A stretch of 64,000 nt of DNA from Strongyloides papillosus. Its lineage: Eukaryota > Nematoda > Chromadorea > Rhabditida > Strongyloididae. Each line of letters begins with the position of its first letter. Position 1 is the stretch's first letter. Under the pieces are notes generated by a model. It made no database searches, had not been told where the DNA came from, and saw only the letters and a program-made list of their open reading frames with translations. The position numbers and the translations under genes were made by a program. The stretch covers positions 310,001-374,000 of the forward strand of contig SRSI01000027.1 of the NCBI GenBank assembly GCA_005656395.1. Reading direction: 5' to 3'. Positions 2,193 through 52,916 of this stretch are shown one piece after another.

Positions 2193-2207
2193 AAGTTTCC
2201 AGAAAAG

Positions 2208-11328: not shown

Positions 11329-11451
11329 TGTTGCACATGGTGCAAGAGGATTAGCTTGATATAACTTTGTCATTGTTTTTTTCATATTTAAAGAGTAATT
11401 TTTATAAATAAAGGCAGTATCGATAATAATCTGTTTTATTATTGTCTAACA
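11329..11451 (+). repeat. 5' LTR of element 2 (123 bp)
   Basis: Starts TGTTGCACATGG and ends GTCTAACA. It carries TATAAATAAAGG near 11403, which could serve as TATA box and/or AATAAA polyadenylation signal. The final A of the LTR is also the A of the polyprotein ATG. It is unusually short for an animal Ty3-like element. Confidence 0.95.
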
Positions 11452-23101: not shown

Positions 23102-24142
23102 TCGTCAATACAACTTACAGAAGAGAAGCTTGCTACGTTATCGTTATCAATTCACATTCTGGAATCGCCTAAAATTTCTGAATCTGACCAACTCATCTAT
23201 ACTCAAATAGAGGACGTACTCAATACCCTCTCATCGCTAGATCAATATCAACATATCGATTTTAAATCACTTGACCGACAAGATATCTTCGCTCGTACAA
23301 AGAGACATCATAGTGATCCTACTAGACTGTCTCGCGCTATCTTTACAGTTCTGTCTGAAGTAGAATCTAACGATACTACTATGGCTCAACCAACTGTGGC
23401 TCAACGCCAATCTTACGACTTTTGCTTATCTGTTACCTTATTCAATCATCGTGACCAAACCCAACGTGTCGAACAATTCTTGGAATCCTTAAATGAAGCT
23501 TTTGAATTAGATGGTATTACTCAAGATAGAGTTAAGATCAATGTACTCCGCCAACGTGTTGAACAAGTTACCAGACGTTTGTTACCAACTGTCGCTGCGA
23601 CTGAAACTTTCCAATCTTACTCTACAAAGATCAGAAATGCTTTTCCATCTAGCTACTCTGACACACTTGCCTCTGATAAGTACTACAAGTTCAAGATCGA
23701 CATGAAATCGTTTGAAGAATCTTTACTCCAATTTGAACATCTCGCTGAAATCGTCTTAGCCAACTACCCTGAAGCTGATAAATTGAATTCTATCAAAGAT
23801 CGTCTAAAATGTCAACTCGCCTCTTATAAAGATCTGTACGAATATGTTAGAGATTTCGATGGAAATCCTGTTACGCTTTTTAGAGATCTGATTCATCGGT
23901 ATGATGACGAAAAGATAAGAAGACAAACTGCTAACGCTGGTAAGTTCTCAAGATACACTTCTTTTTCTCGTTTTAAGTCTATTAAGTGTTATCATTGCCA
24001 AATCTTGGGACATACTAGTGATCAGTGTAAAAGAAAGAAACAAGGTGCTCCACCAGGTGATTATTCAAGACGTCCTATCAAAACTGAATTTGAAGGTGAT
24101 GCCACTGGAAGATCAATCTCCAATGAAGTTCATTTAAACTAA
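23102..24142 (+). CDS. Gag of element 3
   Basis: From the first ATG (23381) the product is 253 aa. It has a helical capsid-like region and one CCHC knuckle, CYHCQILGHTSDQC (about residues 204-217), then a basic tail. The same frame is open and coding-like upstream to 23102 (after TAG 23099-23101) but holds no ATG over these ~93 codons. So either translation starts at a non-AUG codon or by another route, or a start has been lost; ATG 23381 is the conservative start. The ORF ends at TAA 24140-24142, immediately after a slippery heptamer. Confidence 0.8.
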   Translation, partial: SSIQLTEEKLATLSLSIHILESPKISESDQLIYTQIEDVLNTLSSLDQYQHIDFKSLDRQDIFARTKRHHSDPTRLSRAIFTVLSEVESNDTTMAQPTVAQRQSYDFCLSVTLFNHRDQTQRVEQFLESLNEAFELDGITQDRVKINVLRQRVEQVTRRLLPTVAATETFQSYSTKIRNAFPSSYSDTLASDKYYKFKIDMKSFEESLLQFEHLAEIVLANYPEADKLNSIKDRLKCQLASYKDLYEYVRDFDGNPVTLFRDLIHRYDDEKIRRQTANAGKFSRYTSFSRFKSIKCYHCQILGHTSDQCKRKKQGAPPGDYSRRPIKTEFEGDATGRSISNEVHLN

Positions 24143-26999
24143 CGGGGTCCAGAGAGCCTCCTCTGGACTTAAACAACAAAGCACAAGACAGACCTGAATC
24201 TCCTAGAGTTCTTGCTACGGTTATTGTAAATGGGTTATCTGCTACTGCTCTTCTCGATGGTGGATCTGATGTTAGTATCATTAATACGGACTTAGCTAAA
24301 CAGCTTGATTTATGTGTTTCAAATGACGTTGAAAGTATTACTACACTCGCGGGTAAATGTGAAATGGTGTATCTCTACAAATCAATGATCGATCTCGTAT
24401 CACGTGTAGCCGAAATCAACTCTATTCTGGTCCAACTCCTAATTATGCTCAACTACTTCTTGGCAGACCTGCTCTTGCTAGTTTTGGAATCATAATTGAC
24501 TATAGTACATCTACTTTTTCTTACAGACCTGAGTTTAATGATAAAAACTGTCAATTTGTTCTAAAAGATAAGTCACAAGATGAACTTGAGTTTAAATCTA
24601 AGTTAGAGAAAACCTTCCCATCATTAATATCCCAGCATATGTATGATGTGGATGAAGGCTTTGCAACGGCACCTCCTCAAGATTTTACAACTACCAATCC
24701 TATCAAAGACTACAAAGTGTTCAATCGTAAGTATCCATTACGGGGTGAAAGAGAAACAATCCAATCAATGTTAGGCCAAGGAATTCTGAAACCAACCAAA
24801 TCTTTAGAGATCTGCAATCACTATCTTATTGACAAACCTCATTCAAAGGAAAAACGGTTCATTATTGACTGTCGACCAGTTAATAATCGTACTCGAAAGT
24901 TATGGACTGAAAATAGAAAAACAACTTCTCTTATCAACTCTTTTCACATGTTTAAATTTGCCTCTTGTGTTGATCTTAGATCTGGTTATAATCAAGTTAA
25001 TCTCGCTGAAAGTGATCTTCATATGTACAATTTTCAATTCTTACATCAACGATTTACATTTACGAAACTGCCCCAAGGCTCAACCAACGCACCAATCATT
25101 TATCAAAATCTTATGGAAGATCTTGTATTACCGTTACGACAAAAATTTGACGAAAATCTGCATGCTATTATTGTGTATCTGGACGATATATTGGTTCTTA
25201 GCAATACTGATTCAGAAAAACATAAACGTGTTATGTGGGAATTATGCAAACTATTCAATGAACGTAAAGTCAAATTAAATTGGGAAAAATGTCATTTTAT
25301 TCATCAAACAATATGTTTCTTAGGCTGGAAGTTTTCTGGTAAAGACATGTATCCTGAACCAGATAGTGTTCCAGAGAAAATGAAAGTTCTACCTACATCA
25401 AAAGTTATATTATACAAATGGTTACAAACTCTCAATTATTATAGAATATCAATTCCAAAATATGCTGAAAAGACTACAGACCTGTATTTTCTCACTCGTC
25501 AACGCTCTTCAAAACATGTTCAATGGACTGAATCTACAATTCAAGCTTATCATGAAATAGTCAACTTGGTATACTGTAAGCCTCGCATACAACTTCGTGA
25601 TCATTCAAAGAAAGTTATTATGGAAGTCGATGCATCCCAGTTATGCATTGGAGCTGTACTGTTACAAGAATCTGACAATCCCGAGAATGAAGAAGTTTTA
25701 TTTAGAAAGAAATATGTACCGATCTGTTATTACTCTGAAATGTTATCTCCAACCAAGAAAGCTCGTGCTGCAACGTATCTCGAATTGTATGGCATAAAGA
25801 AAGCTTTAATCTTCTTTGCTCCACTTATATCTCAAGAAGAACTAACTGTTTATTCTGACCATAAACCACTGGAGAAAGTTTTAGAACATAACGTTACCCC
25901 CAGATATGCTGACCTGATCGATGCCATTTCTTCATATTCAATAAAGATACATTACATTAATGGAAAGAGTAACTCTCTATCAGACCTGTTAAGCCGGATG
26001 TTCGCGTATGATTCTCTCGAATCCCATCACTTAACTGTATCTACTGACAATTCAAAAAGTCAACTATTGGCACAAGAATTATTTGATGAGTATCATAAGA
26101 AGCTATCACATATCTGTTATTCAAAAATGAAAGACTATGTTATCGAACATCTTCATGAACTTAAGTTGTCACACTATATGGTACTGGAAGTTTTGGAAAA
26201 TTTACTTATCTTAATAAAAGAATGTCCGATCTGCAACCAAAACAACCCACTTAAGAGAAAGAAGAAATTAAAAACAACCCCTACGACTGTGCTAAAAATA
26301 CTTTATCTTGACTTTGCCTTATTAGAGAACCACTATGTTTTAGTAATGATTGATGGTTTTTCGAAATACCTATGGACGGTTGTCACTGAATCACAATCTA
26401 CTAACATTGTTATTACTGCTCTGCATTCCATTCAGAATCAACTTGATTGCCCTATTATTACTATTCGTGCTGATAATTTCAAGTCTTTTACTAGCCCACA
26501 ACTCATCCAAGAATTCCCAGAAATTAAGTTTGAATCAACTATCCCGAATGAACATACTTCAAATGGTGTTGCTGAACGTGTTATTCGAACACTTCGTGCA
26601 CTTCTCAAGAAAGACGAGTCAACATTTCGCGGAAGGAATAGTTTTCAAAGAAGGGTGGCGGTTGTGACTAGGAATTATAATAGAACAAAACATTCAAGTA
26701 CTGGTGAAAGACCTAGAGATCTGATTTTTGTTTTTTCTACTCATGGCATATCAAGAGATCCTGAAGATATTAAGTTGAAAAATCTCAAGCTAGAAACTCT
26801 CCAATATGTTAACAACCCTGTGGCTTATAGAATCTACAAACAAGGAAAACCTGAGACTGCTGTTGGTATTCTTCAAAGTGTTAACGAAAATGACGATACT
26901 GTCATGATCAAGTCAAAGGAAAACTCAATGATCAAAAGACCTGTTCTAAAAATTAGGCCACTGGAAAATTTTAAAGGAGGGAGAAGTAAGAATGGATGA
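24127..26999 (+). pseudogene. Pol of element 3: protease, RT, RNase H, integrase (one frame break)
   Basis: Protease begins in the -1 frame relative to gag with ALLDGGSDVSII (near 24250; the usual DTG/DSG reads DGG). Near 24360-24373 the coding frame changes and protease is completed by LLLGRPALASFGIII; I see no slippery site, so this is likely an indel. From there to TGA 26999 the frame is open: RT with DLRSGYNQVNL (24974), TKLPQGSTNAP (25057) and VYLDDILVL (25178); RNase H with VDASQLCIGAVL (25627), Glu in YLELYGIKKAL and YSDHKPLEKVL (25850); integrase zinc domain HKKLSH...CPIC (26095-26235) and DDE core with YLDFALL (26307), RADNFKSF (26470) and SNGVAERVIR (26560). The C-terminal tail is short. 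Confidence 0.88.
24133..24168 (+). promoter_or_regulatory. -1 ribosomal frameshift signal (gag to protease) of element 3
   Basis: In the gag frame the last codons are CAT TTA AAC TAA, which contain the heptamer T_TTA_AAC (24133-24139). A 7-base spacer follows, then a perfect 8-bp hairpin: GTCCAGAG (24147-24154), a 6-base loop, CTCTGGAC (24161-24168). The protease frame is the -1 frame and is open from 24127, so a single -1 slip fuses Gag to Pol. Heptamer, spacer and stem all fit the known rules for -1 frameshifting. Confidence 0.85.
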
Positions 27000-29531: not shown

Positions 29532-32500
29532 CCGCAGAGCATATTTTTTAAACGAATTTTTGTATTAAATTATTATCAAAATATTTGTATTAGAACAATT
29601 TGTCATTCATAGAAATAAAAAAAACACAATTAAAAAAACAATCATTTATTTAAAAATGTTAAAAAAAATTACAAATAAAAAAAATTCATTTATTAAAAAA
29701 TGTTAAAAAAATCTTCCTGCTCCATTGTTTTTCGTCTTCCCTTTGTTCTTCTTCCTCCAAGTTACTTGTGTTATATATTTTTACTATTTGATCAGAATCT
29801 ACGTATTAAATATTTCTGTATATACAATATTTTTTGCTTTATCCAATTCTGTTTTTACAAATAGACAATCAGGACTTTTTACACGTGAAAAAGCCACATA
29901 CAATTGTCCATGTGAAAATACTGGTGTTGTTAAATCTACACCAACTTTACTTAATGTTTGCCCTTGACTTTTATTAATAGTCATAGCAAAAGCAAGTCTT
30001 ACAGGAAACTGTTTCCTTGCTAATGTAAAAGGATATTCTCCTTCAGAACTATATAAAACTATTCTAGGTATAAGAACAGTTTTATCTTTATTTAACCCTG
30101 ACAAATGGATACATGTCAAGATTCTTTTATTAATCTTTATAATTCTCAATCTTGTGCCATTACAAAGTCCTTCTTTTATGTTTAAGTTACGAAGAACAAT
30201 AATAACAGCATTAATCTTGAGATTCAACACATGCGGTGGTAAACCGCTAGGTGTTAACTGATTCAGATTTTCAATAGGCATGTTGTAGTAATTTTCATTT
30301 GTATCCGAATCTTTTCTAATCGAATCGGCTGAAAATATTTTTTCTACATCGCCTGGTAGAGTATTTAATACTTCATTATTAATAGACTCTACAATGACAT
30401 TTGTTGGAGCAAGAATTGCATAATTAGATTTTTCTAATATGCTTTCATTTTTAGCTCCAAAGATATCGTTCACTAAATTTCCAGTTGATTGGATATTTAA
30501 TGGTATATCTACTTCGCCATCTTCATTTTTTTGAAGAGCATCATTACCAATGTCTAAAATCCACTTGGCAAAATCTATCTCGTCCTCTTTAACCCTCATG
30601 TTTCTGGTAAGTTTCACTGTCTCAAAATGAACGTTCCAAAGAGGGCTATATTTTATGGAGAACAAAACATTTTGATGTCTTGTAGAATTTGGTAGGATAG
30701 GCAATGTTTGCCTGAAATCACCACCACATATGATGACTTTTCCACCGAATGGAAGATCATTCTTGCAAACTTTTTTCAGTTGCTGATCAAGATAATCAAT
30801 TACATACTTACTAAGCATAGGTGCTTCATCAATTATTATTAATGAAGCTTTTTCAAGCATAGTAGTACGTAATTTATTAAGCTTGGATAGCCTAAAATTA
30901 CTATCGTATAAGGTAATAGGTACTGAAAACATAGAATGAACTGTTTGTCCATTTCTAAGAAGAGTAGCCGCAATACCTGTTGAAGCACAATTAAGTACTA
31001 TCTTATCTTCAGCTCTAAGCAAATAATATAACGTTGTGTAGACGAATGTCTTACCTGTTCCTGCAGGTCCTTCTAAAAAGAAGCAACGTTTATCTGAGAA
31101 ATTATTAACAATGATATTTAATATCCTATTAATAAAGTTTCTCTGTTCTTCATTAGCTGATTTTAAATTTTCCTCACCTAACCTTTTTAGAACATCTTTA
31201 TCTTCAACATAATCAATCTCTATAATATCGAAATTGACTTCAGGTAAATCAGTATAGCCATTAAAGTTATTAGATTGTAGAACATTTCTAATATCAAAAA
31301 TGGCTTGAGCTTCCGCTCTTTCTTCATTACCGTTGTATTTCATTAAGTAATCTTCGATTAAGTAATTTTTAAACTTAATGAAGGTATCATAATGCCTTGT
31401 AAAAGATGGCCAATAGCAAATCATGAGCCCGAAGTAATTACGAAGCATGTTAGGCATCGCGCTTTCACATGCTTCTTCAAACAATTCATTGTAATTGTCT
31501 TCAGTATCAAGTAAGCCTCTTGCTATAGCAGCATCTCTAAATGAAGGCCATTGAACATCACTAACAATTTTCAAATCACCTTCACATGTTGCTCCAGGTA
31601 CATGAAGCAAAAGTTGGCGAAGTGAAAACAATTCGACATTCATAGGTGATACAGTAAATATCCTTCCTATTGTACGCCTTTGGCGATGTCTCAATTTCCA
31701 TTCTCTCGTTTTTAAGTCAAACCAATAATACTCCGGTATCTCATTATAGAGATACTTTCTAGCATTAATATCGTTTTTATTAAGATTATAAAATGCTAAT
31801 AATGTAGACTTATAACCTTTATCTGCTTTGAAACAGTTATTGTTGCCATTATTCATTTCATCAGCAACGGTGCAATCCTCATTTATCAGGTGAACTGCTA
31901 ATCTTACAACAGTCCAATCTTTATAAAGTATTGGATACTCCATGATTCTCCAAACTGCTTCTGATGGTCCTACATATCTACCATCGATATGAAGTTTAAC
32001 CTCATCTTTCGATTCAACGGTTTCGACCACATCTGCAGAAATTTTGTCACCATTTGACTTATGTGTATACTTAAATAAATACTTAGGACTTAAAACACTC
32101 TCACATATTTTTACATTAATATGTGAATTGTATTTCAAGCTTAAATAAGGATTATATGTTACACAAAAATCGTTATTTACTTTGTTACCAAATCTATCTG
32201 TAATATCTAATAAGGGATCAAATGATCTCTTAATGTTAACTTTACCTTTAGAAGTAATGGAAGTTACTTTATGGTACTGTTCTGGGAATTTTTTAGTGCA
32301 AATATTCTTTGCCTCATCCCAACAGGGTACTTTTGTTTTCGAAATATCACATCTCGAATGTACCATTGTTTTTGTAACAATTTCAAAAAGACGTGGATTT
32401 TTTTCTTTATCAGGGAATTCTGCTTTAACACATTCATCTACCTGATCAGAAGTTAATCTGAAGTCTTCTTTTGAAACTTTTACCAATATATGAATATGTG

Positions 32501-35500
32501 GTAAAGATCTTTTTTGAAACTCAATGGTCGACTGTAGATAAACTACATTGCCCATAATTTTGTTTTCTTTCAAGTCATGTATTAAAGCATCGGATTTATG
32601 CTTAAACACTCTTGCAATCAAGTCATGGCGATCATTCGGTAGTTGTCCTGGATAAAGATTTTCTGTAATCTCTCTCCAATTTGGGTTTGTGGTCATTGTA
32701 ATAAAGAAATCTGGTTTCCCAAATTTCCTAACAATGGCCATACCGTCTTGATAGCCTAAATGCATGAATCTTCTTGAACCAATGTAACTGCTAAAAAGTT
32801 TAATTCTTTCACTTTTTTTTGCAGCTTCTTCATTATCTTCATCACCGATAAGATAATCTTCAAGAAGATCTTCTATGTGTTTATTATTCTTTTGTTTAAG
32901 CTCTTTGTTAAGCTTAATAACATAATTTAGACGATCTCTTTCTATTGCTGTGTAAGCATCAACAACAAATAGTTGAAATAATAATCCTCCATGATGTAAA
33001 GGATTAAATGATGGCCTCACAGCAATTAGATTTTGGTAATAAACCAATTTCGTTAGAGATCTTTGTTCATTACCTTTTTTATAAGTTGTTTTCTCTTTCC
33101 ATCCAAAAGCTCCTGTTGGGAAGAACAATGGATATGTTGCAGGATCTTTTAAGGCACTGAAATGGCTCAAAGTTTCCAATTTTCCTGTTTTATTACATAA
33201 CAAAACATTATAATCAGGAACTTCTCCATCTTCACTTTGAAATATAGCTGCTATTTCTGTAACCTCTGGCAAATTACGAACTCTATCGTTCTTATTTGCT
33301 GGAGGTCTCAAAACCAATTTATACATTGTCACAGCTTTTTTCTCATTTTTGTGTTTTATTTCTTGCTCACGAATATAATCACCAAAATGTTTATATGATA
33401 ATGCTAACATATTTATTTTGGAAATTATATGAGTAAGATTACTAATAACTGATATTTCATTAAATGCGTTAACATTTTTATTTCTAATATCTTCAGCAAC
33501 ATCAGGTCCATAAAAATATAGTTGTCCATAGGACAAATTATCTTTATTTTCAGGTACAGCTGTGTTTATTACACGCTTTGCCTCACCATGCAACACAAAT
33601 GTTGGAGGACCTGGTGTTTTAAAATCTCTTTGTTGACCGGTATAACTCGCAAAGGCAAATTTATTATTAATTCGCCTACAATGCTTTTTAAAGTATATAC
33701 TTTCTTCATCTTCACCTATAAACAAATCTTTTATAAATTTAGGAAAGTTATTAAATAATCTTTCATATTCTTTAACTCCCCCAAATTCACAGCATTGTTT
33801 ATATTTGCTTTCTTTTTCATAGAACATCGCTTGGCAATGTTCACAGCCAGTATAAAGGGAACCCAAATAATGCTCATCTGGGATAATTTCCTTATTTCTA
33901 GCTGGAAAAAGTTTTTGTTTTTTCAAACTCTTTTTACTTTTTTCCCTTTTTTTAGTAAAATTGTTAGCTACTTGAATTGAATCAAGAGCTTTTACAATAG
34001 AATCTACCTGAGAATTTTTATTTAATGGTACATCAGCACATTTTATAATGTTACTTGGTAATCTTTTAATTCTTTTTGTCAATTTTTTTTTACCAATTGT
34101 TTTTCGAGTTTTATCTAATTGAACAAAATTTACTAATACATCTTTAATTACCGAAATTTTGTCATTACCATCGTTTAGTTTATCGCATTCTGCAATATTT
34201 TTTAAACTTTTTGGTAAACTCTTTTTAGATCTTTGTAATTGTAATCGTAATTTATTAGTATCCGATTTTCTTTTACAATTTTTAATTTTATTTTTAGTAA
34301 TTTTTACTTGATTTAATACAGATCTAATATCTACACTATGTTCTTTTGGATCTTTTGATATATTTTTTTCAAATATATCAACTTCCATTGGCTCCTCATT
34401 ACTTATCGTAACATTTTTATTTAGATCACAAATAAATACTTTATTTATTTTCAAATTGTCATTAGATTCCGCTTTAACAGTATCTTTTGATAATTTAGTT
34501 TGCAATCTATTTAAATGCTTTTGTAATTTCTTTTTTTCATTGACTCTTTTGCAATTTTTTATTTTACTTTCAATTTCATTTTTTTCTTTTAATGTAGAAT
34601 CAATATCTACATCAAAATTTATTGCAACATGCGATATATTTTTTTCACAAATGTCAATTTCCATTGGTTCGTCATTTTTAAAATCGAAACCTTTGTTGAA
34701 ATTACTATCAAATTCCTCATTTATTTTTATGTATTCAATACAATCTTTTTTAACAGTATCTTTAGATTTTCTTTCTAATCTATTTAACTGTGCTTGCAAT
34801 TTTCTTTTTCCCTCAATTCTTTTGCATTTTTCAATTCTAGTTTTTAATGAAGAGATTTCTTCATTCAAATTAGAATCGATCTTTTTGCTTTTTTTAGATA
34901 AGTGTAAGGATTCTTTATTGACTATTTTTGATAGTCTATCCCTTACCTTATTTTTACTGGCTGAAACATCAGGATTATTACCTGATATATCTTCAACACT
35001 AATGTTTACACCGTCAATTTGAAATACTGAATTATTACAAACCTGATTAGCTTGTAAATGTTTTATCAAATCAACTAATGTGTTAAACATTAGCATACAT
35101 GAAACACCATTTGAACAGTATCTTCCATATTGATCCATAGAATGTCGATCAAATATGAAGAATGCTTCATAATGGTGTAATATTGAAGAAGCCCTTTCAT
35201 TAGCAATCAAGATTAGAAACTGATGTTCGTTTACTAATCTATTCAATGCTTCTGAAAGAGAAACGAAACCAAAGTTAATCTCGTTTCTTCTAGCCTTCTT
35301 CCCTCTTCCCGTAAATGATAAGCACGAAGCTGTGCTAAAAGTTATTTTACGATTAAACAAAATTGTTTCTCGTAAAATATTGGTTATTGATAAATAACCT
35401 CTATGATCAATTACCTCATTAATGCTGCGCATATAATTAATGCATTCTTCGTATAAAACGTTTCCCTGGTTTAGGACATTATTTATATCAAATTTTACCC

Positions 35501-35940
35501 AATTTAATGGTGATTTGATACATGCCATAATCAATGCAGCAGATGACATTGCAACACATTGGTTATTTTGTCCTAAAGATGCTTGGCACATATCGGCTTG
35601 CAAAATTTTAAAAATAGTTGTACTATTGGAATTTATTGGCACGTAATCATTCTGAATTACCATGCCTCCAGCACAACTTTTTTTATTTTTTATAGCTTTA
35701 ACCAAATCATCGGCTTGACCATTGTTTCTAATGGTTATCGAATAAATGATTCCATTAGTATTAAGAATGTATGACACAATAATGTCTTCATTCAAAATAA
35801 TGACATGCTTCGAATTAATGAAATCATGTACAAAATTATGATTTACTGAATCAGTAAAATTACAAATTGAAGTTTTTGGAATGTCAATTTTATTGACTTT
35901 TTTCAATAAATTGTTGACGAATTCCATTTCTCCCGTTTTT
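29500..35940 (-). mobile_element. Helitron (rolling-circle transposon)
   Basis: Defined by the 2042-aa Rep-helicase ORF (29799-35927) and the terminal hairpin plus CTAA near 29501-29522. The 5' TC end upstream of 35940 could not be placed in the AT-rich sequence, so the right boundary is only a minimum. Confidence 0.8.
29799..35927 (-). CDS. Helitron Rep-helicase polyprotein with N-terminal Cys/His protease-like domain
   Basis: 2042 aa, unbroken. Residues 1-320: [10 protein letters not shown] (Cys ~122) and [15 protein letters not shown] (His ~259), the layout of herpesvirus-tegument-like (C76-type) deubiquitinating proteases; this is inferred from the motif pair only. Residues ~360-620: a Lys-rich coiled region made of three repeats of ~92 aa, marked by KNCKR/KLQxxLNRL and EPMEVDI. 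Residue ~690: the Helitron N-terminal zinc region ([11 protein letters not shown]...CCEFGGV). Residue ~1142: the HUH nuclease motif LPHIHILVK. Residue ~1289: YLFKYTHKS, the Rep tyrosine motif. Then [14 protein letters not shown]. Residues ~1590-2040: Pif1/RecD-type helicase with GPAGTGKTF (~1618), IIIDEAPML (~1704), [11 protein letters not shown] and the C-terminal [13 protein letters not shown]. It nicks and unwinds DNA for rolling-circle transposition. All catalytic motifs appear present. Confidence 0.93.
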
Positions 35941-42722: not shown

Positions 42723-42862
42723 TGTAATCTGTTTGATAAAAGGTAGATGGAATATATATTAAATTTATTTTAAAAGCTCTCTGATTAACAATAATGTGTT
42801 TAATAATAAAAGTACCTTTCTCTTTATACTATCTTGGAAAGGGTGGGTTGTCCCACCCTACA
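42723..42862 (-). repeat. 3' LTR of element 4
   Basis: On the + strand it runs TGTAATCTGTTTGATAAAAG ... CCCACCCTACA. A perfect GGGTGGG-TTGT-CCCACCC hairpin sits at its outer U3 end and is conserved in both LTRs. Confidence 0.9.
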
Positions 42863-42873
42863 TCCCCTTTTCT
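42863..42873 (-). promoter_or_regulatory. Polypurine tract of element 4
   Basis: AGAAAAGGGGA on the minus strand, directly before the LTR start TGTAGGG. This orients the element to the minus strand. A 7-bp hairpin (CTACCTG/CAGGTAG) overlaps its inner edge. Confidence 0.8.
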
Positions 42874-43194
42874 ACCTGGTTTATCAGGTAGGGATTAAGT
42901 AAACTTGGTTTTTTCTTTTTTTGCATGTGTTAAAGGTTTTTTTTCTTTTGTCATCTTCTTTATTGTATATGTTAAAGGTTTTTTTCTTTTGTCATCTTCT
43001 CTATTGTATATGGCAGCGTAGATGATTTTCCTTTTTTTTTCTTTTACTTATATGTTTGATAAGATTAATTCTTTTTCATCTTTTTTATTATAGTTTTCTA
43101 AGAGATAGATGTATTTTTAATTCATTATTTTTAATTTAATTTTAGTTTAACTTTTTCTTTATTTATAGTTCCAATTTTTGAAATTTGATTGCGA
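42874..43194. other. T-rich leader of the antisense genes of element 4
   Basis: Contains a direct repeat of AAAGGTTTTTTTCTTTTGTCATCTTC (about 42930-42955 and 42973-42998; core length over 20 bases). No ORF. It may be the antisense promoter/leader, or the 3' untranslated part in the sense direction. Confidence 0.5.
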
Positions 43195-43440
43195 ATGGCT
43201 CCAAGTACTTATACCGAACTTTGTCAATCTCTGGGCTTTATTTCTTCCAATGACTGTCCGGTTTCAACTTCATGTCCACCGCCACCACCACCACCTCCAC
43301 CACCACCATGTAAGCCTATTACCATTCAGTATGCGGATAGTCCTAAGGAGTACTGGATGGAAGTTTTAAATCTTGTTCTTCAGTTGTTAATGCCGGTGAT
43401 TGTTTATTACTTTAACAGGTGGACTCAGCGAAATCAGTAG
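43195..43440 (+). CDS. Small proline-tract membrane protein, antisense gene of element 4
   Basis: 81 codons from ATG 43195 to TAG 43440 (an in-frame codon precedes the ATG). The product has a short polar N-terminus with three Cys, an uninterrupted run of 11 Pro (about residues 30-40), a further Cys, then a hydrophobic segment LNLVLQLLMPVIVYYF near the C-terminus that could span a membrane, ending in NRWTQRNQ. It lies on the strand opposite pol, between the 3' LTR and the larger antisense ORF. No family is recognised. An accessory or anchor-like role is possible but unsupported beyond the topology. Confidence 0.55.
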   Translation: MAPSTYTELCQSLGFISSNDCPVSTSCPPPPPPPPPPPCKPITIQYADSPKEYWMEVLNLVLQLLMPVIVYYFNRWTQRNQ

Positions 43441-44116
43441 AGTTGGTGTTCTCTTCTTTTATTTGTTTTTTGTTTTGATTTTAAAGTATAAATTTGTTAT
43501 TGTTAATATTTTTGTTGACTAGTAAATTTTTAATTTCTTTTCGTTTTTGGATTGTTGGTGGCGTTGGTGTTGATTATTATTTTCCTTCTGATTTCCCATT
43601 GTGTAGATGAAATAGCTTGGTGGCATTTTAGTATATTAATGTATCTTCATTTATTTATTAATAAGTCAACTGCTTATTTTTGCGAGTATTAATTAAATTA
43701 GCAGACAGGTATTTGATATTTGATAATTTGTTAAAACGTATATTTAGGGATTATGTCTTTTGTCTAGTTATTATTCAGTCAAATGAAATATTAGAAAAAT
43801 TTTTTTCTTTTATATTATATAATGTTACATTTTGTGCCTCTAGTTAGTACTATGCACTTTTTATTGCAATTTTTAAGTAATTAATGAAATTTTTCATTAT
43901 CAGTCTGTCCCCTTTTCAGACTAAACATATGTTGTTTAGTCGTATAAAAGTATTTTAAGCTATGTGTATATAAATATGCCATTATCAAGAATTGGTGCTT
44001 TTTTTAACGTACACATTGTGATTATATATTAACGTAACAATTATATTGTCTACATTACCAGTTATTAAATAATATTAATTTTGTTATTCTAGCTAAGTTC
44101 CCGTGAAACTGTAGTA
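43441..44116. other. Non-coding interval between the two antisense genes of element 4
   Basis: No ORF of note. It ends with a good 3' splice-site-like sequence, TTTTGTTATTCTAG (to about 44093), 23 bases before the next ATG. This suggests the interval is, or contains, an intron joining an upstream exon to the 44117 ORF. No donor that preserves a fused frame was found, so a 5'-UTR intron is more likely than a fusion. Confidence 0.4.
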
Positions 44117-45163
44117 ATGGACAATATTGATAGAAATGATGATAATGCTCTGCTTGATGGTTCAGACGGCCATCAAAGTGATGAAGGAAACATGAATGAT
44201 CTTCTGGATGAACCGAACGATCATCAAAAGGACAGGGGAGACATTGCTGTTATTCCTGGCGGCTCCGAGGCACGAATCGTTAGTGAAAGTGATCGTTATT
44301 TTATGCCTTTGGCGTTATCAAAGACTCAAGACAAAAGGGTAACCCAAACATGGTCGTGTGTAGAAAAATACGATGTTGTTCTGAATATTAATATCAGAGG
44401 AACAGTCAAGGCTTTTGAAAAATATGCTCACTGCCTGTTGACAGGTGATGATGTCAATATCGTTTTGGGGCGCTGGCGAGTTAGTAGTGTGCCAAGAAGG
44501 GGAATGATCTTCCATCAATATTGCCCTCCATTATTGGCATTTTCAACTGACCGCCGGTTGAAGAACGGTAAAATCTGCCCCAAAGAATGCTTGGAGTGGG
44601 TGAATGGCCGTCGAAGTGGGCCATTGAATGCTGCTGCCATCAAGGTGGCAATGTATCAGGAATCGCATTATGCAAGTGTAGTGGCTGCATTGAATAAACA
44701 AAGAGCGACATTATTGGACATCAATTTTTCTATGCAAGGGTGCCGTAAGCTGTTAGGAGATGCAGTTGTTGAAACACTCAAGGTAAGACCAATGGGGGTC
44801 TGTAATAACCTTGACTTCTTGGCATCTTTACATGTTAAGGCGCTGTACTGGGATGGGAATAGCAACACTATAACACGAGGAGTATTGACAGCTTTCCCAA
44901 ATTTGGCTGTCATCGTCTACAGGGATTGCAAATTCACAAGAAGCGTACAACTCCCTGGTAGCATAAGGATAATAATATGTTGCACCCGTAGATGTCAATG
45001 TGATTTGGGAAGAATACGAGGCTGGCAAAGACCATATAGCGTCAAATGTGGACCAAATGTTATTGGTGGACCAGCTAGCCTGTATTTCAAGACAAAGGAG
45101 GACTTCCTTTGTTTCGGAGACTATTCTGGCGTATCCAGAATAAGACATACACAAGATGTCTAG
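44117..45163 (+). CDS. 348-aa antisense protein of element 4, unknown family
   Basis: ATG 44117 to TAG 45163, unbroken although pol on the other strand is riddled with lesions. The N-terminus is acidic and carries an imperfect ~18-residue duplication (LLDGSDGHQSDEGN, then LLDEPNDHQKDRGD). The middle is mixed alpha/beta in character with Trp and Arg blocks (VLGRWRVSSVPRRG, ECLEWVNGRRSGPLNAAA). The last ~70 residues are Cys-rich (RIIICCTRRCQCDLGR, SVKCGPN). No signal peptide or membrane segment and no recognised domain. Base composition is less AT-rich than the flanks and similar to the pol genes, consistent with belonging to the element. Its stop is 95 bp from the convergent integrase stop. 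Confidence 0.65.
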   Translation: MDNIDRNDDNALLDGSDGHQSDEGNMNDLLDEPNDHQKDRGDIAVIPGGSEARIVSESDRYFMPLALSKTQDKRVTQTWSCVEKYDVVLNINIRGTVKAFEKYAHCLLTGDDVNIVLGRWRVSSVPRRGMIFHQYCPPLLAFSTDRRLKNGKICPKECLEWVNGRRSGPLNAAAIKVAMYQESHYASVVAALNKQRATLLDINFSMQGCRKLLGDAVVETLKVRPMGVCNNLDFLASLHVKALYWDGNSNTITRGVLTAFPNLAVIVYRDCKFTRSVQLPGSIRIIICCTRRCQCDLGRIRGWQRPYSVKCGPNVIGGPASLYFKTKEDFLCFGDYSGVSRIRHTQDV

Positions 45164-45257
45164 TGTCCAGTTTTATTATTTCATTTTATGCTTATATTGT
45201 AGCTTATATAGTATAATAAAACTTTGTTAATTATTATATTTGTTTTGAGTACTCGTC

Positions 45258-46448
45258 TTAAGATGGGTGTACGGGAACGATTTTCAATCTGTCCGCTGTA
45301 ACCCTTTCTTCCTTTCCGGTTAGGCGACCTGCCTTGGTGCAGCGTCGAATGATGAATGTGTCTCCATGTACGTGAGATATGACTGTGTAAGGGCCGTCGA
45401 ATTGGTCCTGATATTTATGAGAGGTATGAGACAATTTTTTATGCGTTACTCGTTTCATAACGATGTGGCCAGGTAGCAATTGTTTACCCTGACGACTAAC
45501 TGTATTTGGAGTATCCGAATACTTCTCCATACCGTATTTTAGAACATCCGTTAGTCCGCTAGTGATGCCATGCATAGGAATATCCTTTAATACACGATCA
45601 GCCGTGTTGAGAACAAAGTAACTTGGTGGATATCCTGTGGACATGTGCTTAGTACGGTTGTAAGCATAGGTTAAGGCATAAAACGTTTCGATTGGGGTTA
45701 ACTCTGTTTGAGCACGAAGTGATTCACGAATTGTACGATTGAATCTTTCTACAAACGCATTCGATTTGTGGTTATGTGGTGATGAAATATAATGCTTGAT
45801 ATGCATTGTCTGAAGGTACTTTTCAACCTTATTGCCAATAAAAGATGCTCCACCATCTGTACGAAGTGTTCTGGGATAACCGAAAGTCGAGAAACATTTC
45901 ATCAGTTGTACCAACGTGGACTGCTGATCTTGTTTTTTAGTTATGGCAGTGTAAGCAAAGCGACTGTATTCGTCGATAATAACAAGAACATGAAGCTTAT
46001 CGTCAAGTTGTATATAGTCGGCATTCAATGTTTCCCAGACTTCACTTGGTCGAGGAATTGAATGTGTGTTTGTTTGAACAAGATTAGAAGGTTGATGTTT
46101 GGTTCTCCAACATACCTCACAATCTTGCCATACACGTTGCATGTCCTTAGCCATCTTAGGCCAATGAAATATAAGACAAAATTTATCAGCTAGTTTAGCA
46201 TATCTCCAGTGTTGACCAATGTCGGGATGTTCATGAAATCTTCGCAAAAGTTCATTCCGTAACACACGAGGTACATAAACGCGAGATTTTCCTTTAATAG
46301 TTATCATTACTCCCTCATCTTGGAGAATAGCTTTTTCTTGGTCGTCAAGAAACTGTGCAAATCGGGATATTTCAAATGGTTTATCTCGGATGTCATTCAT
46401 GATAGGAAATGCATCCTCATATAGAGATTCATTGGCTATGATAGCATT
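45258..46448 (-). pseudogene. Integrase of element 4
   Basis: Reads from about 46448 to TAA/TGA region at 45258 with the zinc domain HEHPDIGQH...CEVC (46220-46110) and the core Asp in LNADYIQL (near 46018), Asp in RTDGGASF (near 45862) and Glu in NAFVERFNR (near 45748). The C-terminal domain includes DQFDGPYTVISHV (near 45395), the usual DNA/chromatin-binding tail. One in-frame TAA (46452-46454) separates it from RNase H, so it belonged to one Pol polyprotein. The segment itself is uninterrupted. Confidence 0.85.
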
Positions 46449-46451
46449 GAA

Positions 46452-47460
46452 TTAGTTTCTACTAAGATAGTCGGCAACATTGTTGTCGGATCCTTTAACA
46501 TAGACTATAGTAATATCATATTCCATTATGGCCATTTGGTACCTCTGAAGAATACCTGTCAGCTCCTTGTTTTTGAGCAGCGCTAACAGAGGCTTATGAT
46601 CAGTAACCACTGTTGTGTGTTTACCATAGATGTAAGGTCTAAATTGTTTGAGGGCATACACGAGCCCCAATGCCTCGAGTTTAATAATCGGATAATTCTT
46701 TTCTGCCGGTTTGAGAGAACGCGAAGCAAAAGCTATAGGTTTACTCTTCTGTGTTAGTGCTGCACCTAATCCTTGAAAGGAGGCGTCAGTAAATATGGTA
46801 TATGGAATAGTGTGGTCTGGTGGTGCCAGAACAGCAGCATTGATAAGTGCGTCTTTCATTTTGTGAAATGCCTTTTTCTGATCATCTGACCATTGAAAAT
46901 GATTAATGACACGATATAAAGGTTCAGCTATTGCTGAAAAATTGTCAATGTGCTTTCGAAAGTAAGAGACGGCACCTAGGAAGGATTTAAGTTCCTTCTC
47001 GTTCTTAGGGTCAGTTTTATTAGATATTGCTTTGACTTTAGCTGGATTAGGATGGATTCCTTCGAAATCAATCACGAAGCCTAAATAATGTGCACAATTT
47101 TGACCGAATTGACACTTATTAAGAGTTATTTTCATGTTGTATAAGCGAATACGGGATAGGATATCATGAATCCTTTCCAGATGTTCATCTTCGTCGTTAG
47201 TGCATGTCAATATATCATCGAGATATATGTAACAATTGTCAATACCACAAAGAACTTTGTCCATGATATCTTGGAATTTGTCGGGTGAACCAGTCAAGCC
47301 CATAGACATAACTTTATACTGGTATATTCCTCTGTGTGTCACGAATGCAGCAATACGTTTACTAGCTTCATCAAGGGGTATTTGGTGAAACCCTTGTTTC
47401 AAATCAAATACACTGTAGAAACGATGACCGCTAGCTTCTTATGTTAAACGATCAATTCGT
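46452..47460 (-). pseudogene. RT C-terminal part and RNase H of element 4
   Basis: Contains DLKQGFHQIPL (RT block A), the active site CYIYLDDILTC (near 47220), LGFVIDFEGI and LGAVSYFRKHI (thumb), then RNase H with IFTDASFQGLG (near 46785), Glu in KLEALGLVYAL (near 46680) and VVTDHKPLLALL (near 46600). All RT and RNase H catalytic residues are present. The upstream junction is damaged: a frame change near 47465 and an in-frame TAA near 47440. Confidence 0.85.
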
Positions 47461-48969
47461 GGTATTATGTGGTGTTTGTTTTATTAACTTATTGATAGCT
47501 CTAAAATCCACAACAAATCGCCACTTTGAATCTTTCTTGCGTACAAGAACAACTCTAGACAAGTATGGTGATCTACTGTCTTCAATCATACCTTTTTCTA
47601 GCATATCTTGAACTTGTCTATCAATTTCCTCCTCTACTTCTTTAGATCGGCGGCCTGGCCGGATACGTTGAGGCAAGGAATGTGAAGATAGCTCTATATT
47701 AAGACGTTCTGGGCCATTATATAGACCGATTATGCCGTCATATTCGAAAAAAGCTTCTCTATTCTCCCATATTATCTCTTTTAATTGGGATTTACTTTTT
47801 TCTGATAACACGCATGATTCCCATTCAATCAAGTCAAATAACTTTTCTCTAGTTAGAGGTGGGTGAGGATGCGGATAATTAGGAAGGGAATTCTCCCAAT
47901 AAGCATCATCTGGAATTATCTCTTCTCCAGATATACGAATAGTATTTTCATCTAGCTCTTCAATTGAAAAGAGTTTACCGATTTCAGTGTTACTGGGTAC
48001 ATTTACCGGATTATATCCTTTATTTTGTATAATAACAGCGTATCTGTTATCAATTACCGGACCTATCTGGTCATAAGTCATTATGTGATTTACTCTTTTC
48101 CAATGGTTATTACTTTGGAAGAGGAAATTCACTTTGTTATACATGGTTTTTACGTTAGGTGTGACATGTACTATTCTGGTAGTCATGGGGAGAATAGTGA
48201 TATTATCAATGGTTTTAACTGTGAAAAATTGCTCCTCATGAGAATTAGAATCAACCAAGTTGATAGTTAATTCGTTACCATATATAGCTCGAAGACCTTG
48301 TATTCCGATTACCATGTCATGAGGAATAGTATCAGAAACATGAGTTTTAATTTTTGATACTTTATTATTTACTTTAAGAGTTATTATCGTGGAGCCTAAG
48401 AACTTCATAACTGTATTGTTTGCTAACTGTGCTCCACTACTTTTGGATACAATGTTAGACTTTATATTTTTGGGTAATTGGTCATAAATTGTCTTGTTTA
48501 TGACGTTTATATTTGCACCCGTGTCTAATAGGGCATTCATCGTAAATGAAGGGAATTGAATTTTAATGATAGGCAGTTTAGACGGTGCATCTTCAACAGC
48601 AATGTTATTAACTACGCCATTCCGTGATACACGAATGGGATTTCCTAACAGCAAGTCATTATGATGTGTGGATAACAATGGTTCATTCACAAACAATGTA
48701 TTGTTTGGTGCATCTGTAGATCGGAAATCTTGTACCATTTTAGCGGCTTTATTAAAGCCGTACTTTGTAAGGATGATAGCGATTAAAGTCATTGCGCTTG
48801 CTACTGTGTTTGGCATTTCATGAATAGCTGTATCAAATTGTTGATCGCGTATCAACTTAATCCAATTCATGAACGAGGTGTACATATCAGGATCGTTGTC
48901 CAAACAACGAACTCTGTAATATGTGATTGGGTTAGGTGGAACAGGATGTTGTTGCACATCCCCCGCCTG
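47452..48969 (-). pseudogene. Protease and RT N-terminal part of element 4
   Basis: Begins just after a TAG at 48970-48972, in the same frame as the preceding coiled-coil segment. The first ~130 residues resemble a linker or nucleocapsid-proximal region. Retropepsin follows with NALLDTGANINVINKT (near 48525) and DMVIGIQGLRA. A ~150-residue spacer leads to the RT start (QRIRPGRRSKEVEEEI, VVDFRAINKLIK near 47510). The stop at 47452 comes from a single-base frame change. No ATG was needed for a polyprotein segment. Confidence 0.8.
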
Positions 48970-49812
48970 CTAGACGGCATCACGTAATTGTCCTTTTAAT
49001 TGGGCATTCTCAACCCTAAGGTTAATATTACTGTTCAAACATATCTCATGCTTTTCCATTATACCATCACAAGGCACGGACGATTGTGGTGCATCTACAC
49101 AAGTAACGTTAATGACAACTTGTGGAATGTCATTGTTTACAGATACACTGTCCTGATCAACCGATGTGGTTGTGTTACAGACAATATTAGATGATGCCAG
49201 TTGTAGAGCATCATGCAATTGTATTTTAAGCTCACGTGATTGCTCGCGAACATCTTTGAGGGAAGCCAATTCTACGCGTAATGCCTTAATATCGAATTCC
49301 ATTGCTTCAATTGTAGACAGATGTTCAGTCTTTTTCATGTAATCAGTACGAAAGGTAGTTAACTCACTATTTTTCAACTCTAATAGTTCGTTTAAAGAAG
49401 TAATACGAGCTGTTAATTCGTCGATTTCATTCTGTAAACTATCAGTTTGTGTAGATTTCTCGTTTACTTGCTTATGAAGAAGTTGGACTTCACTATTCAA
49501 CAGCAGCGTGTCCTGAAGACAGTGCTGCAGATCATTGGTGTTCTTGGTACAAGACGAAGCTGAGGCACGGAGTTGGTTAAGCTCCTCTCTCTCATCAATC
49601 GTCTTATCTACATACTGTTGCACGATTTTCATATCGTTCATACATTTAGTATTATCACCCCTGAGAAGTTGAAGTTGGTTATTCTTTAACTCCAGCTCCT
49701 TTTTCAACTTTTTTTCGCTCGTTTTGACATTCTAATAATTTGTCTTCGAGCTCTCGGATAGAAGATATTTGCTGTTCATGCAATGCAGCTTTCTGACGCT
49801 CACCCGCAAAAC
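48970..49812 (-). pseudogene. Long coiled-coil segment of element 4
   Basis: Almost continuous heptad pattern (for example NDLQHCLQDTLLLNSEVQLL, NEIDELTARITSLNELLELK) over ~240 residues, ending in a Ser/Val-rich stretch and RVENAQLKGQLRDAV before TAG 48970-48972. Between about 49812 and 49715 the heptad-bearing frame is displaced (QQISSIRELEDKLLECQNER reads in another frame) and it returns at a seven-A run near 49713. Two compensating indels are therefore present and the coil was originally continuous with the segment upstream. Together with the upstream part the coil spans more than 350 residues. No Ty3-type Pol domain resembles it. Confidence 0.7.
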
Positions 49813-50754
49813 CGACTGTACCGCGGTGGTGAGGGATTGAAGTTCCTCCTTCATTGATATAGGAGGAATAGTCAACGTGAAAGCATTAGGTATGCCTTCT
49901 ATATGTGTTGTAACTGTCTTAATGTCGTCGAGTATTTTAGATTTATCGTCTGCCAAAATGCGTTCTGACTTCTTTAATTTCTCGACTTTCTTCGTTTGGC
50001 TTTTCAATTTAGCCTCGCAATTACGTAACTCAGCTTCTATTTTAGATACTACTGTTTTATCTTGTGTGCTGGCACGAAGTGTAGTTGTAGCTTCAGGTGC
50101 CTTATTTGTGTTACTTGAAGCGGGTGTTTTACTCTTCTCCGTCGCGGCATGTATTACCTTTGGGGGCGCTTCCTTAATTAGAGCTACCATATTGGAAAGC
50201 TCACAAGATTGTTCATAAGCTAATATGGCTGCATGTACCTTCTTAAGAATAGAAGATGAATCAACTGTGTCGTCTGATATTTCGACAAAATCATTATTAT
50301 TGTTATCGAAGCGAACAGTTTTTACATTATGACAATTTGGATTGGCAGTTGTAGTTATTTTCTTATCGAAATCGAAGTGGTTATCAAGAAAAACATCTTT
50401 TACTCTAAGACCTTTATTTTCTAGTATGCTCCCAATTTTACAATTGGGTAGTAGCTGTTTATAATGTACTTTTACCATATTGTCAACGCCAAAATCGCAT
50501 TGATTGTAATAAGCACCATATTGTGAGGGAGCCAGCTTACATTTACCTATAGGTGCTGATGCTCCAAATGGAATTAGAAAAGCTAGTATTAACATACAAA
50601 TAGTCAATGTGTTAAGTTTTAACTCTTTGACAAGATTACTTAGATCATAGACAATGCCATCAAGTTTACCAGTGGATTGTGCATCTGTACGATCGTCATG
50701 TGATGCCTGTACGTTGTTGATTTTACCTTGCTGTGGATAGCGAGTGGTGCTTTT
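49732..50754 (-). pseudogene. Signal-peptide/ectodomain-like segment of element 4
   Basis: In frame with the nucleocapsid-like ORF but separated from it by a single TAG near 50755. After ~45 polar residues comes a hydrophobic stretch, ICMLILAFLIPFGASAPIG (about 50595-50540), typical of a signal peptide with a cleavage-like GASA/P site. A Cys-containing region follows (GKCKLAPSQYGAYYNQC, LLPNCKIG, TANPNCHNV), then a Thr/Ala/Lys-rich linker and the start of the coiled coil (KIEAELRNCEAKLKSQ). A related protein is encoded, unbroken, at 63047-64000. It might be a membrane or envelope-like component; its place between nucleocapsid and protease is unusual. Confidence 0.65.
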
Positions 50755-51318
50755 ACTCTAAGGATAGGTCTTATGGTCTCCACGGCGGTTGGTAGTTCCA
50801 CCTGTAGGAGCCTTGTTTGTATTATATGTCGTGTTAGGTTTACGAACATCGGCATGTTTCGTTAATTGACGTGATGTGTGACCGTTAGATGTATTAGCCT
50901 GATTATTATACTTGTTTTTAATATTGTTGTTAAAAGTATTATTATTATTCCCTTTATAAGTATGCTGGCGATTGTGATTATTCTTACTATGAGAATTATT
51001 AGGATGACGACTAGATCTACGATCAGAAGACTGTATTTTATTAGTATTAGGCTTCATTCCTCGTGATAAATGAGGACGCCGAATTACATCAATTGCCGGT
51101 TGCATTCTAATCTGAGTTTCTATATATGATGCAACAAAATCATCATATTCCAACTCATACAAATTGGGGGTAATGTTGTTAAGGCGTAGCAACAGATGTA
51201 ACCCTTTTGTAAATAACATTAATTGATCTCTTTTAAGATCCTTAGAAGTCCGGAAAAAGGCATTAGGATTGGTGACCGAGAATTTTTTTCGTATATACTC
51301 AGAAAATTTGTTTCGTGA
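50755..51318 (-). pseudogene. Basic Asn-rich nucleocapsid-like region of element 4
   Basis: Continues the Gag frame after an indel near 51310. After a helical stretch (LMLFTKGLHLLLRLNNI) come ~100 residues dominated by Asn, Arg, His, Lys and Thr without a CCHC knuckle, consistent with RNA binding by a disordered basic tail. It ends at a TAG near 50755-50757, beyond which the same frame continues into the signal-peptide segment. Confidence 0.65.
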
Positions 51319-52343
51319 GCGGAAACATCTAATGCGTCATTCATGGGAGGCACGGCATAGAAGTTTTCATAACTTTGCAGACCTTGCCTAGCCAGAATGT
51401 CTTTAATATCATTTAATATTTCTGTCAATGTAAAATTGTAACTAACTGAAAAACCATCGATAGTGCTTTTCTTGGTAACAGCGATGTTACGGGCATTAGC
51501 GATTTTGCTATCCGAAGGAATGATATAATTGACTAGCTTTGCTGCTATGTTATCAATTACCGGGAATTCATCCTTATTATGGGCTAAAAGATTGAGGGTA
51601 TTAATGCAATGTTGCATAAAATTGGTATAACCGTTAATTGATTTTCCTTTAAATGTACCAAACATTTTCTTTGTTTGGGCTAATAACAGAGCATTTTCCA
51701 ACTCGCTAACAGTGCGAATTGATCTCTTCTTGGGAGTATAAGATGCTCGTAAGTCGGGAACATAATAGTCACTACTAATATGTAATTCTTTCAAAACCTC
51801 CGTTAACCGGTTGGTTTGTTCGGCACGGAGAGCATCGTACTTGTGAGGCTCTGTATCAAGTACTTGCTGCTGTTCGTTAAGCAATTCAGCAATAACGGTT
51901 TTCACAATGGTCGACTGCTCAGCCAATGGAATACCATTTTGGCCTGGTTTCGTTTCGTCAACCTGACGTGGTAATCTCAAATGCGAAACTTGAGATAATA
52001 TAGAGGTGCTGCCTTTGTGGAACAAATTACGCCATCCCTTGAAAGCAGGTAATGACGTGTCCACGTTGGGCAATATTTTAGGATGCTCTTGAAAAGAGAC
52101 AACCTTGTTGGATGGTGTAGCTTTTGAAGCATACGTAGTATCATGATTAGGAAAGACTTCACTAACATGATGATCGCCACTTTCGTGGATTGGGGGTCGT
52201 GCTTGCAACATAATGGGTACAACCTGTGATGGTTGTAGCATTATGTTGACAGGCTTGGTGTCACTTGCGTGAGCATCGCCACTTACGTGGAGGGAAGTAT
52301 TTTTCTTTGTAGGTAAACTACTTGAACGATAATTAAACGACAT
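51219..52343 (-). CDS. Gag (capsid region) of element 4
   Basis: 374 aa from ATG 52343. The N-terminal ~100 residues contain an imperfect repeat (HVSGDAHASD..., HESGDHHVSE...) with MLQ-P motifs. The central part is helical (LTEVLKELHIS, ENALLLAQTKKMFGTFKGKS) and shows a capsid-like pattern (TNFMQHCINTLNLLAHNK). No enzymatic motif. The last ~30 residues are out of frame: near 51310 an indel moves the true sequence into the frame of the next segment. It lies 440 bp downstream of the primer-binding site, as expected for gag. Confidence 0.7.
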   Translation of the reverse strand: MSFNYRSSSLPTKKNTSLHVSGDAHASDTKPVNIMLQPSQVVPIMLQARPPIHESGDHHVSEVFPNHDTTYASKATPSNKVVSFQEHPKILPNVDTSLPAFKGWRNLFHKGSTSILSQVSHLRLPRQVDETKPGQNGIPLAEQSTIVKTVIAELLNEQQQVLDTEPHKYDALRAEQTNRLTEVLKELHISSDYYVPDLRASYTPKKRSIRTVSELENALLLAQTKKMFGTFKGKSINGYTNFMQHCINTLNLLAHNKDEFPVIDNIAAKLVNYIIPSDSKIANARNIAVTKKSTIDGFSVSYNFTLTEILNDIKDILARQGLQSYENFYAVPPMNDALDVSAHETNFLSIYEKNSRSPILMPFSGLLRILKEIN

Positions 52344-52766: not shown

Positions 52767-52783
52767 GGTTCGTGGAACCTCCA
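52767..52783 (-). promoter_or_regulatory. Primer-binding site of element 4, probably tRNA-Gln
   Basis: TGGAGGTTCCACGAACC starts at the first base after the 5' LTR on the minus strand. Its first 11 bases are the complement of TGGAACCTCCA, the acceptor 3' end of animal tRNA-Gln with CCA added. Confidence 0.6.
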
Positions 52784-52916
52784 TGTAATCTGTTTGATAA
52801 AAGGTAGATAGAATATATAATAAATTTATTTAAAAGCTCTCTGATTAAGATGTGAATATTATAAATATATCTTTCTTTTATACTATTTTATAAAGGGTGG
52901 GTTGTCCCACCCTACA
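52784..52916 (-). repeat. 5' LTR of element 4
   Basis: 133 bp, related to 42723-42862 with several substitutions and small indels. It keeps the GGGTGGG/CCCACCC hairpin at the outer end. Confidence 0.9.

Follow-up and report, generated by a model that had tools for sequence, protein, structure and literature searches.

Conserved antisense genes between integrase and the 3' long terminal repeat of Ty3/gypsy-like elements in Strongyloides papillosus

Element 4 and the genes opposite its pol

The stretch analyzed here, hereafter the window, comprises 64,000 nucleotides of Strongyloides papillosus (assembly GCA_005656395.1, contig SRSI01000027.1, positions 310,001 to 374,000 of the forward strand), and all positions are counted from its first letter. 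It contains a long terminal repeat (LTR) retrotransposon, element 4, with pol on the minus strand. Two open reading frames (ORFs) of 81 and 348 codons lie on the opposite strand between the integrase and the polypurine tract (PPT), where an initial annotation of this DNA had placed them, and the PPT occupies 42863-42872. ORF B (43195-43440, plus strand) has 81 codons from an ATG and encodes a Pro tract and one hydrophobic segment, while ORF A (44117-45163, plus strand) encodes 348 aa with an acidic N-terminus and a C-terminal part that looks like leucine-rich repeats (LRRs) and carries a C-x-C motif. Several putative signals accompany these genes on the plus strand. A second, internal copy of the PPT at 43908-43919 (TCCCCTTTTCAG) also reads as a 3' splice site; a TATAAAA at 43943-43949, upstream of ORF A in a block common to families A and B (defined below), is a candidate core promoter; a candidate 3' splice site (TTATTCTAG) lies at 44084-44092, just upstream of the ORF A ATG; and an AATAAA is located at 45215-45220, 51 nt past the ORF A stop.

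The remainder of element 4 is that of a Ty3/gypsy-type LTR element, with the Pfam domains RVT_1, RT_RNaseH, H2C2 and rve in sequence on the minus strand. The integrase (H2C2 and rve domains) occupies 45258-46400, the C-terminal part of the reverse transcriptase and the RNase H occupy 46452-47402, and the remaining gag-pol, broken by stops and frame shifts, extends over 47452-52343. As expected of an LTR element, both LTRs have TG..CA ends and are accompanied by a PPT and a putative primer binding site. The 3' LTR (42723-42862, minus strand, 140 bp) adjoins the PPT (GAAAAGGGGA in the pol sense) and aligns with the 5' LTR (52784-52916, minus strand), and the putative primer binding site (TGGAGGTTCCACGAACC) is at 52767-52783 on the same strand. 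The two LTRs belong to different subfamilies, the 3' LTR resembling that of copy L009 (97%) and the 5' LTR that of copy L019 (97%), and the flanks (AATA and AATG) form no clean target-site duplication; therefore, element 4 is probably a recombinant copy. No sense-strand gene of several hundred codons, as expected for env, follows pol in the window element: the longest sense-strand ORF between integrase and the 3' LTR, for which no domain scan was made, has 108 codons from a TTG (44828-45154) and overlaps ORF A.

The initial annotation had emphasized that the larger antisense ORF is unbroken despite the many lesions in pol. The open frame is real, but it says little alone. Compared with the open frame of L009, the window pol carries five in-frame stops and two frame shifts over ~6.6 kb, and at this rate ~1.4 lesions would be expected in the 1.29 kb of ORF A plus ORF B, with a probability of ~0.25 of finding none. 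Therefore, the open ORFs of the window copy provide weak evidence, and the proof is supplied by other copies.

Other mobile elements lie in the window at 29799-35927, 20836-21603, 804-4525, 11442-15917 and 23381-26999; from their translations, we take one to be a Helitron-like frame of 2042 aa, another a transposase of the mariner-like type, and the rest frames of additional LTR elements.

Recurrence and coding constraint of the antisense genes

Genome-wide counts refer to the assembly of 58.2 Mb in 79 contigs. In agreement with a nematode host, it yielded 66 matches to the N-terminal domain of cuticle collagens, which is nematode-specific, and none of 14 control genomes yielded any. Twelve copies were read for family A (the window, L009-L011 and L014-L021); family B comprises elements with an integrase 63-64% identical to that of the window, and a third group those with 38-44% identity. 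ORF A was found at 60 genomic loci, and in 45 of these a convergent integrase lies within 3 kb (within 530 bp in 41 of the 45), with two of the 45 pairings, both in the third group, resting on 84-bp N-terminal matches. The remaining 15 loci have no integrase match in any orientation within 3 kb, and all five inspected among them (L012, L013 and L043-L045) retain a convergent C-terminal remnant of integrase. L012 and L013 are 78-79% relatives with decayed integrase ends, and what is presumably an arginine kinase gene lies beside L012. When the 71 integrase matches over 900 bp were classified by identity to the window integrase, pairing with ORF A was observed in 11/11 at 85% or above, 4/11 at 50-84%, 18/25 at 38-49%, 0/12 at 33-37% and 0/12 below 33%. 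At 38% identity or more, 33 of 47 elements are thus paired with an ORF A match, seven of these 33 with the truncated form of family A. The ORF A products of families A and B share 28-33% identity over matches of at least 200 residues. ORF A has the same place and orientation in both families, and it is older than their split.

The recurrence of ORF A in the third group is less secure. Opposite pol, L056, L057 and L062 have ORFs of 230-401 codons in which the motifs L..L..C and C-x-C occur, and protein searches with L056 and L057 returned 39 and 35 matches, respectively (overlapping sets, self counted). A profile comparison (hhalign) of the ORF A of families A and B with the third-group type scored 32.1 (P 0.0018 with L070 included, 0.012 without it); none of 200 column shuffles reached this score (maximum 22.9), and the reversed profile scored 15.6. 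At L070 (C1:1185700-1186900), ORF A is of the third-group type (36% to L057), but the neighboring integrase resembles those of families A and B (55-64% to that of the window); this could be an intermediate or the outcome of cassette swapping.

Coding constraint on both ORFs is clear. Between the window and L012, mismatches in ORF A number 35/30/88 at codon positions 1/2/3 (p=1.6e-9), and the same test gave p=0.0024, 0.01 and 0.14 in three further pairs, the last with L010a. The ratio of nonsynonymous to synonymous substitution rates (dN/dS) in the window-L012 pair is 0.15 (dN 0.122, dS 0.80), with values of 0.12 for window-L009, 0.185 for window-L011b, 0.14 for window-L010b and 0.145-0.21 for the pieces of L013. 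Weaker constraint was observed for window-L010a (0.36), for window-L011a, which covers the acidic N-terminus (0.59), and for the decayed pair L012-L013 (0.53-0.76). Among family B pairs with finite dS, the ratio is 0.09-0.26, many dS values exceeding 1 and several being saturated. Overall, ORF A ratios are mostly 0.09-0.26 with a looser N-terminus, in which indels preserve the frame. For ORF B, six family A pairs gave 0.04-0.13; in family B, two pairs gave 0.04 and 0.09, one was undefined, and three pairs with L041, the C-terminal tail of which is in another frame, gave 0.38-0.54. These results bear out the proposal of the initial annotation that element 4 is an ambisense element with an antisense accessory cassette, ORF A recurring under purifying selection at the same place and orientation in a sister family, and ORF B showing strong constraint among family A copies and having, by position, a counterpart in family B. 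Constraint across copies, which the annotation had suggested examining, was found for both genes, and we hold it almost certain that these conserved antisense genes are real.

What the two proteins are can be described in more qualified terms. ORF A matched no Pfam family and has no named relative; the initial annotation's term Cys-rich applies to it loosely, in that it has invariant cysteines and the C-x-C motif. Pfam scans of ORF A from the window and six relatives found neither an LRR match at E up to 1 nor an F-box. Entries for F-box LRR proteins (COI1, TIR1 and an F-box protein) are among the structural matches, all sub-threshold, and the product looks like an LRR-like protein. The HBZ protein is of the bZIP type, and its gene is expressed from the 3' LTR. 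The likeness to HBZ-type genes drawn initially gained no support: no bZIP match was found at E up to 1 for the ORF A of the window and six relatives or for the window ORF B, and nothing supports expression from the 3' LTR. The same proteins had no match at E up to 1 to TRP28 (PF04195). A Pfam scan of the window ORF B protein returned nothing above the cut-offs.

ORF B is a small protein with a single hydrophobic segment and may be a membrane protein; the hydrophobicity (1.69 in family A and 1.70 in family B) lies right at the usual threshold. In both families it shares a common position, a hydrophobic segment, Pro tracts and an N-terminal Y-x-E-L-C, and a BLASTP E of 0.067 between the families makes the likeness in sequence suggestive only, resting on position and a short motif. 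Inspection by eye turned up a small antisense ORF that has a single hydrophobic segment in families A and B, L057-L060 and L062, and none in L056 or L061. In the more distant L059 and L060 (integrase 34-36%), such a small ORF is the only one seen in antisense; its hydrophobic segment is strong (KD 3.2-3.4), and its relatives occur at four other places for L060 (E below 1e-27) and at three for L059.

Loss of the cassette and signals on the antisense strand

The cassette has been lost repeatedly. In family A, both ORFs are present in four of the 12 copies, open in the window and L009, with one frame shift in L010 and one stop in the ORF A of L011. In the other eight, ORF B is absent and ORF A is shortened in frame by 248 codons, and the remnant is open at 149 codons in seven of the eight, that of L021 being interrupted by an insertion. 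This insertion (L021 2340-6578) is a retroelement with a long open frame; in L014-L020, an unrelated stretch common to the deleted subfamily, ~0.2-0.7 kb inside the 3' LTR, stands in place of the ORF B region. Among 11 family B integrase matches over 900 bp, four have an ORF A partner. Both ORFs occur in L038 and L041; L039 and L040 keep ORF A, with no ORF B found; L066 and L067 have ORF B without ORF A; and L063, L064, L065, L068 and L069 have neither ORF A nor a complete ORF B. The initial annotation had held that copies lacking both ORFs would point to a host fragment captured once. Many copies do lack or truncate the cassette, but the losses occur within families that also have the ORFs.

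Altogether, ORF A has been wholly or largely lost in 8/12 family A and 7/11 family B copies, some with open pol, which argues against indispensability, and in C7 and C26, pol is one uninterrupted frame (2348 and 2341 aa, respectively) next to a deleted cassette. Because the deleted subfamilies still multiplied, copying within the genome apparently does not require the cassette in cis, and the module is likely accessory and dispensable in cis.

Two further loci, L043 (C51:179596-183303) and L044 (C31:1015-4722), have an intact ORF A of 329 codons beside an integrase tail of only ~40 residues. They align over 5.1 kb, with 93.5-94.9% identity upstream, 97.0% in ORF A and 84.9% downstream, and the ORF A copies differ by 20 synonymous and 10 nonsynonymous changes (dN/dS 0.135, P=2.5e-7). 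This locus pair is a candidate for a domesticated antisense gene, or might represent alleles or duplicates with gene conversion.

Expression signals were also observed on the antisense strand. Among 10 cassettes, nematode-like introns of the form GTAAGT..TTT(n)AG were predicted five times on the antisense strand and never on the pol strand, with 0.6 expected from first-order shuffles. They sit in L038, L041, L056, L057 and L060, and L038 and L041 belong to one family, so the five are not independent cases. The window cassette has no canonical intron of this form. By eye, the predicted splicing yields MPA-x-NY(E/R)ELC, which stands alongside MAPSTYTELC of family A, and a further predicted intron of L057 ends TTTTTATAG and would allow the hydrophobic segment to run on. 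Antisense introns of this kind would survive retrotransposition, as the sense genomic RNA lacks them in splicing orientation. Of the 15 ORF A stops examined, 14 are followed by an AATAAA at 34-53 nt, the contribution of chance not being negligible in such AT-rich DNA. Past ORF B, a signal was found at 24-48 nt in L038, L041, L066, L067 and L057, and none in the four family A copies, L059 or L060.

Families A and B have in common, ahead of ORF A, the block TCCCCTTTTCAGAC..TAGTCG..TATAAA(A/T) with small variation, its first part repeating the 3' PPT. With a strict pattern, both PPT copies were present in 12/12 family A and 10/16 family B loci (the sequences of some of the other six not extending to the 3' side), and none of L056-L062 has the pair. 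The internal copy is kept in cassette-deleted copies too, which suggests a cis element independent of the cassette, possibly a second primer for plus-strand synthesis inside the element, an acceptor site for splicing, or a portion of a promoter.

A proposed dispensable accessory module and its known counterparts

Herein, we propose that the two genes form an old, dispensable antisense accessory module in a nematode Ty3/gypsy-like lineage, which we consider the probable explanation. Element 4 would be a decayed copy of an ambisense lineage with genes opposite gag-pol between integrase and the 3' LTR. Antisense mRNAs would arise from promoters inside the element, one of them perhaps marked by the TATA box that families A and B have kept ahead of ORF A, and would encode a small membrane protein (ORF B) and an LRR-like adaptor or RNA-binding protein (ORF A). 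Not needed in cis, the module would nonetheless pay over the long term, with ORF A kept by selection over the A/B divergence and both ORFs kept within families. The benefit might be to bring element RNA or particles out, from the nucleus via ORF A and across membranes via ORF B; such an export or membrane role, by analogy with env and the Rev/CERV-type genes of other elements, is put forward tentatively.

Narrower readings of the function are weighed against the same observations. Loss of env is known in endogenous retroviruses, and the pair could substitute for env, with ORF B active on membranes (fusion, pore formation or budding) and spreading particles between cells with the help of ORF A, and with both genes lost in lineages turned purely intracellular. 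The recurrence of a small hydrophobic antisense ORF in families A and B, L057-L060 and L062, as seen by eye, and the repeated cassette loss while pol stays open are consistent with this substitution; however, the borderline hydrophobicity in families A and B, the empty Pfam result for the window ORF B, the separate losses in family B (ORF B in L039 and L040, ORF A in L066 and L067) and a likeness of the small ORFs across families that amounts to position and a short motif make it doubtful. Rather unlikely, too, is that ORF A is a nuclear regulator binding element RNA or export factors and exporting unspliced genomic RNA, by analogy with CERV of Cer1 and with NXF1 and CTE RNA. An F-box/LRR-like adaptor sending a host factor to destruction would fit COI1, TIR1 and the F-box protein among the structural matches of ORF A and the giant-virus F-box/FNIP proteins in its viral match list, but with no F-box in Pfam and all matches sub-threshold, we regard this role as improbable.

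Two further explanations were considered. According to the available part of PMC7264820, antisense transcripts can regulate elements, and the antisense RNA itself might matter here through double-stranded RNA or small-RNA control of gag-pol, with the ORFs as by-products; this is very improbable, as both dN/dS ratios clearly less than 1 and indels that keep the frame call for selection acting on the protein. The absence of a Pfam family for ORF A might suggest that a piece of a host gene was captured on one occasion, or that the window copy has the ORF by chance. ORF A nevertheless occurs in two families at 28-33% identity and in a third group, convergent wherever an integrase is near, which leaves this explanation hardly credible. 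Capture in the window copy alone is refuted by the recurrence of ORF A; an ancient capture is possible. Returning to the accessory module, its boldest version is of an animal LTR lineage gone ambisense, in which a small membrane protein (encoded by spliced RNA in some families) and an LRR-type adaptor for RNA or host factors replace the work of env and Rev-like genes, purely intracellular sublineages have shed the pair time and again, and the host has in turn retained one ORF A (L043/L044) to serve its own ends; we consider this full scenario speculative and unlikely as a whole.

The literature searched contained no animal case of antisense ORFs between pol and the 3' LTR: in the accessible portions, an annelid study mentions such ORFs only in its introduction (PMC8220671), and a survey of plant-parasitic nematodes does not mention antisense (PMC11118728). 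The available text on other systems offers several partial counterparts. Cer1 of C. elegans is likewise a Ty3/gypsy element of a nematode, and its additional gene, CERV, is specific to the lineage and expressed from a spliced mRNA, but CERV shares exons and reading frame with gag-pol and is thus in sense orientation, unlike the genes described here (PMC10309623). The LTR elements of bdelloid rotifers are animal elements with small transmembrane third ORFs, for which the portions consulted nowhere state an antisense orientation (PMC5408684). HTLV-1 HBZ and related genes also encode a protein in antisense near the 3' LTR (PMC11963269, PMC7264820). The closest likeness in position is to plant Retand elements, which have antisense ORFs between pol and the 3' LTR (PMC11963269, PMC7264820). 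Retand/Tat-type elements (Retand, Grande, RIRE2) share with those described here the position and orientation of the extra gene in many copies, and a regulatory role has been proposed for it; as described in these sources, they are confined to plants, and their proteins mostly carry TRP28 (PF04195), whereas in the nematode elements one protein is LRR-like, the other is small and hydrophobic, and introns are predicted. Antisense genes of retroelements were formerly a topic of plants and retroviruses, and the nematode lineage extends it. A single genome in which conserved antisense genes, some with predicted introns, occur together with open copies and naturally deleted derivatives provides a way to ask about their function, and it suggests how introns can persist inside a retroelement, on the strand that genomic RNA hides from the spliceosome. 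Annotation of transposable elements that reads the pol strand only misses such genes. Thus, the position of the cassette is of a known kind, that of plant Retand elements, and what is new is the proteins, the introns, and the host phylum.
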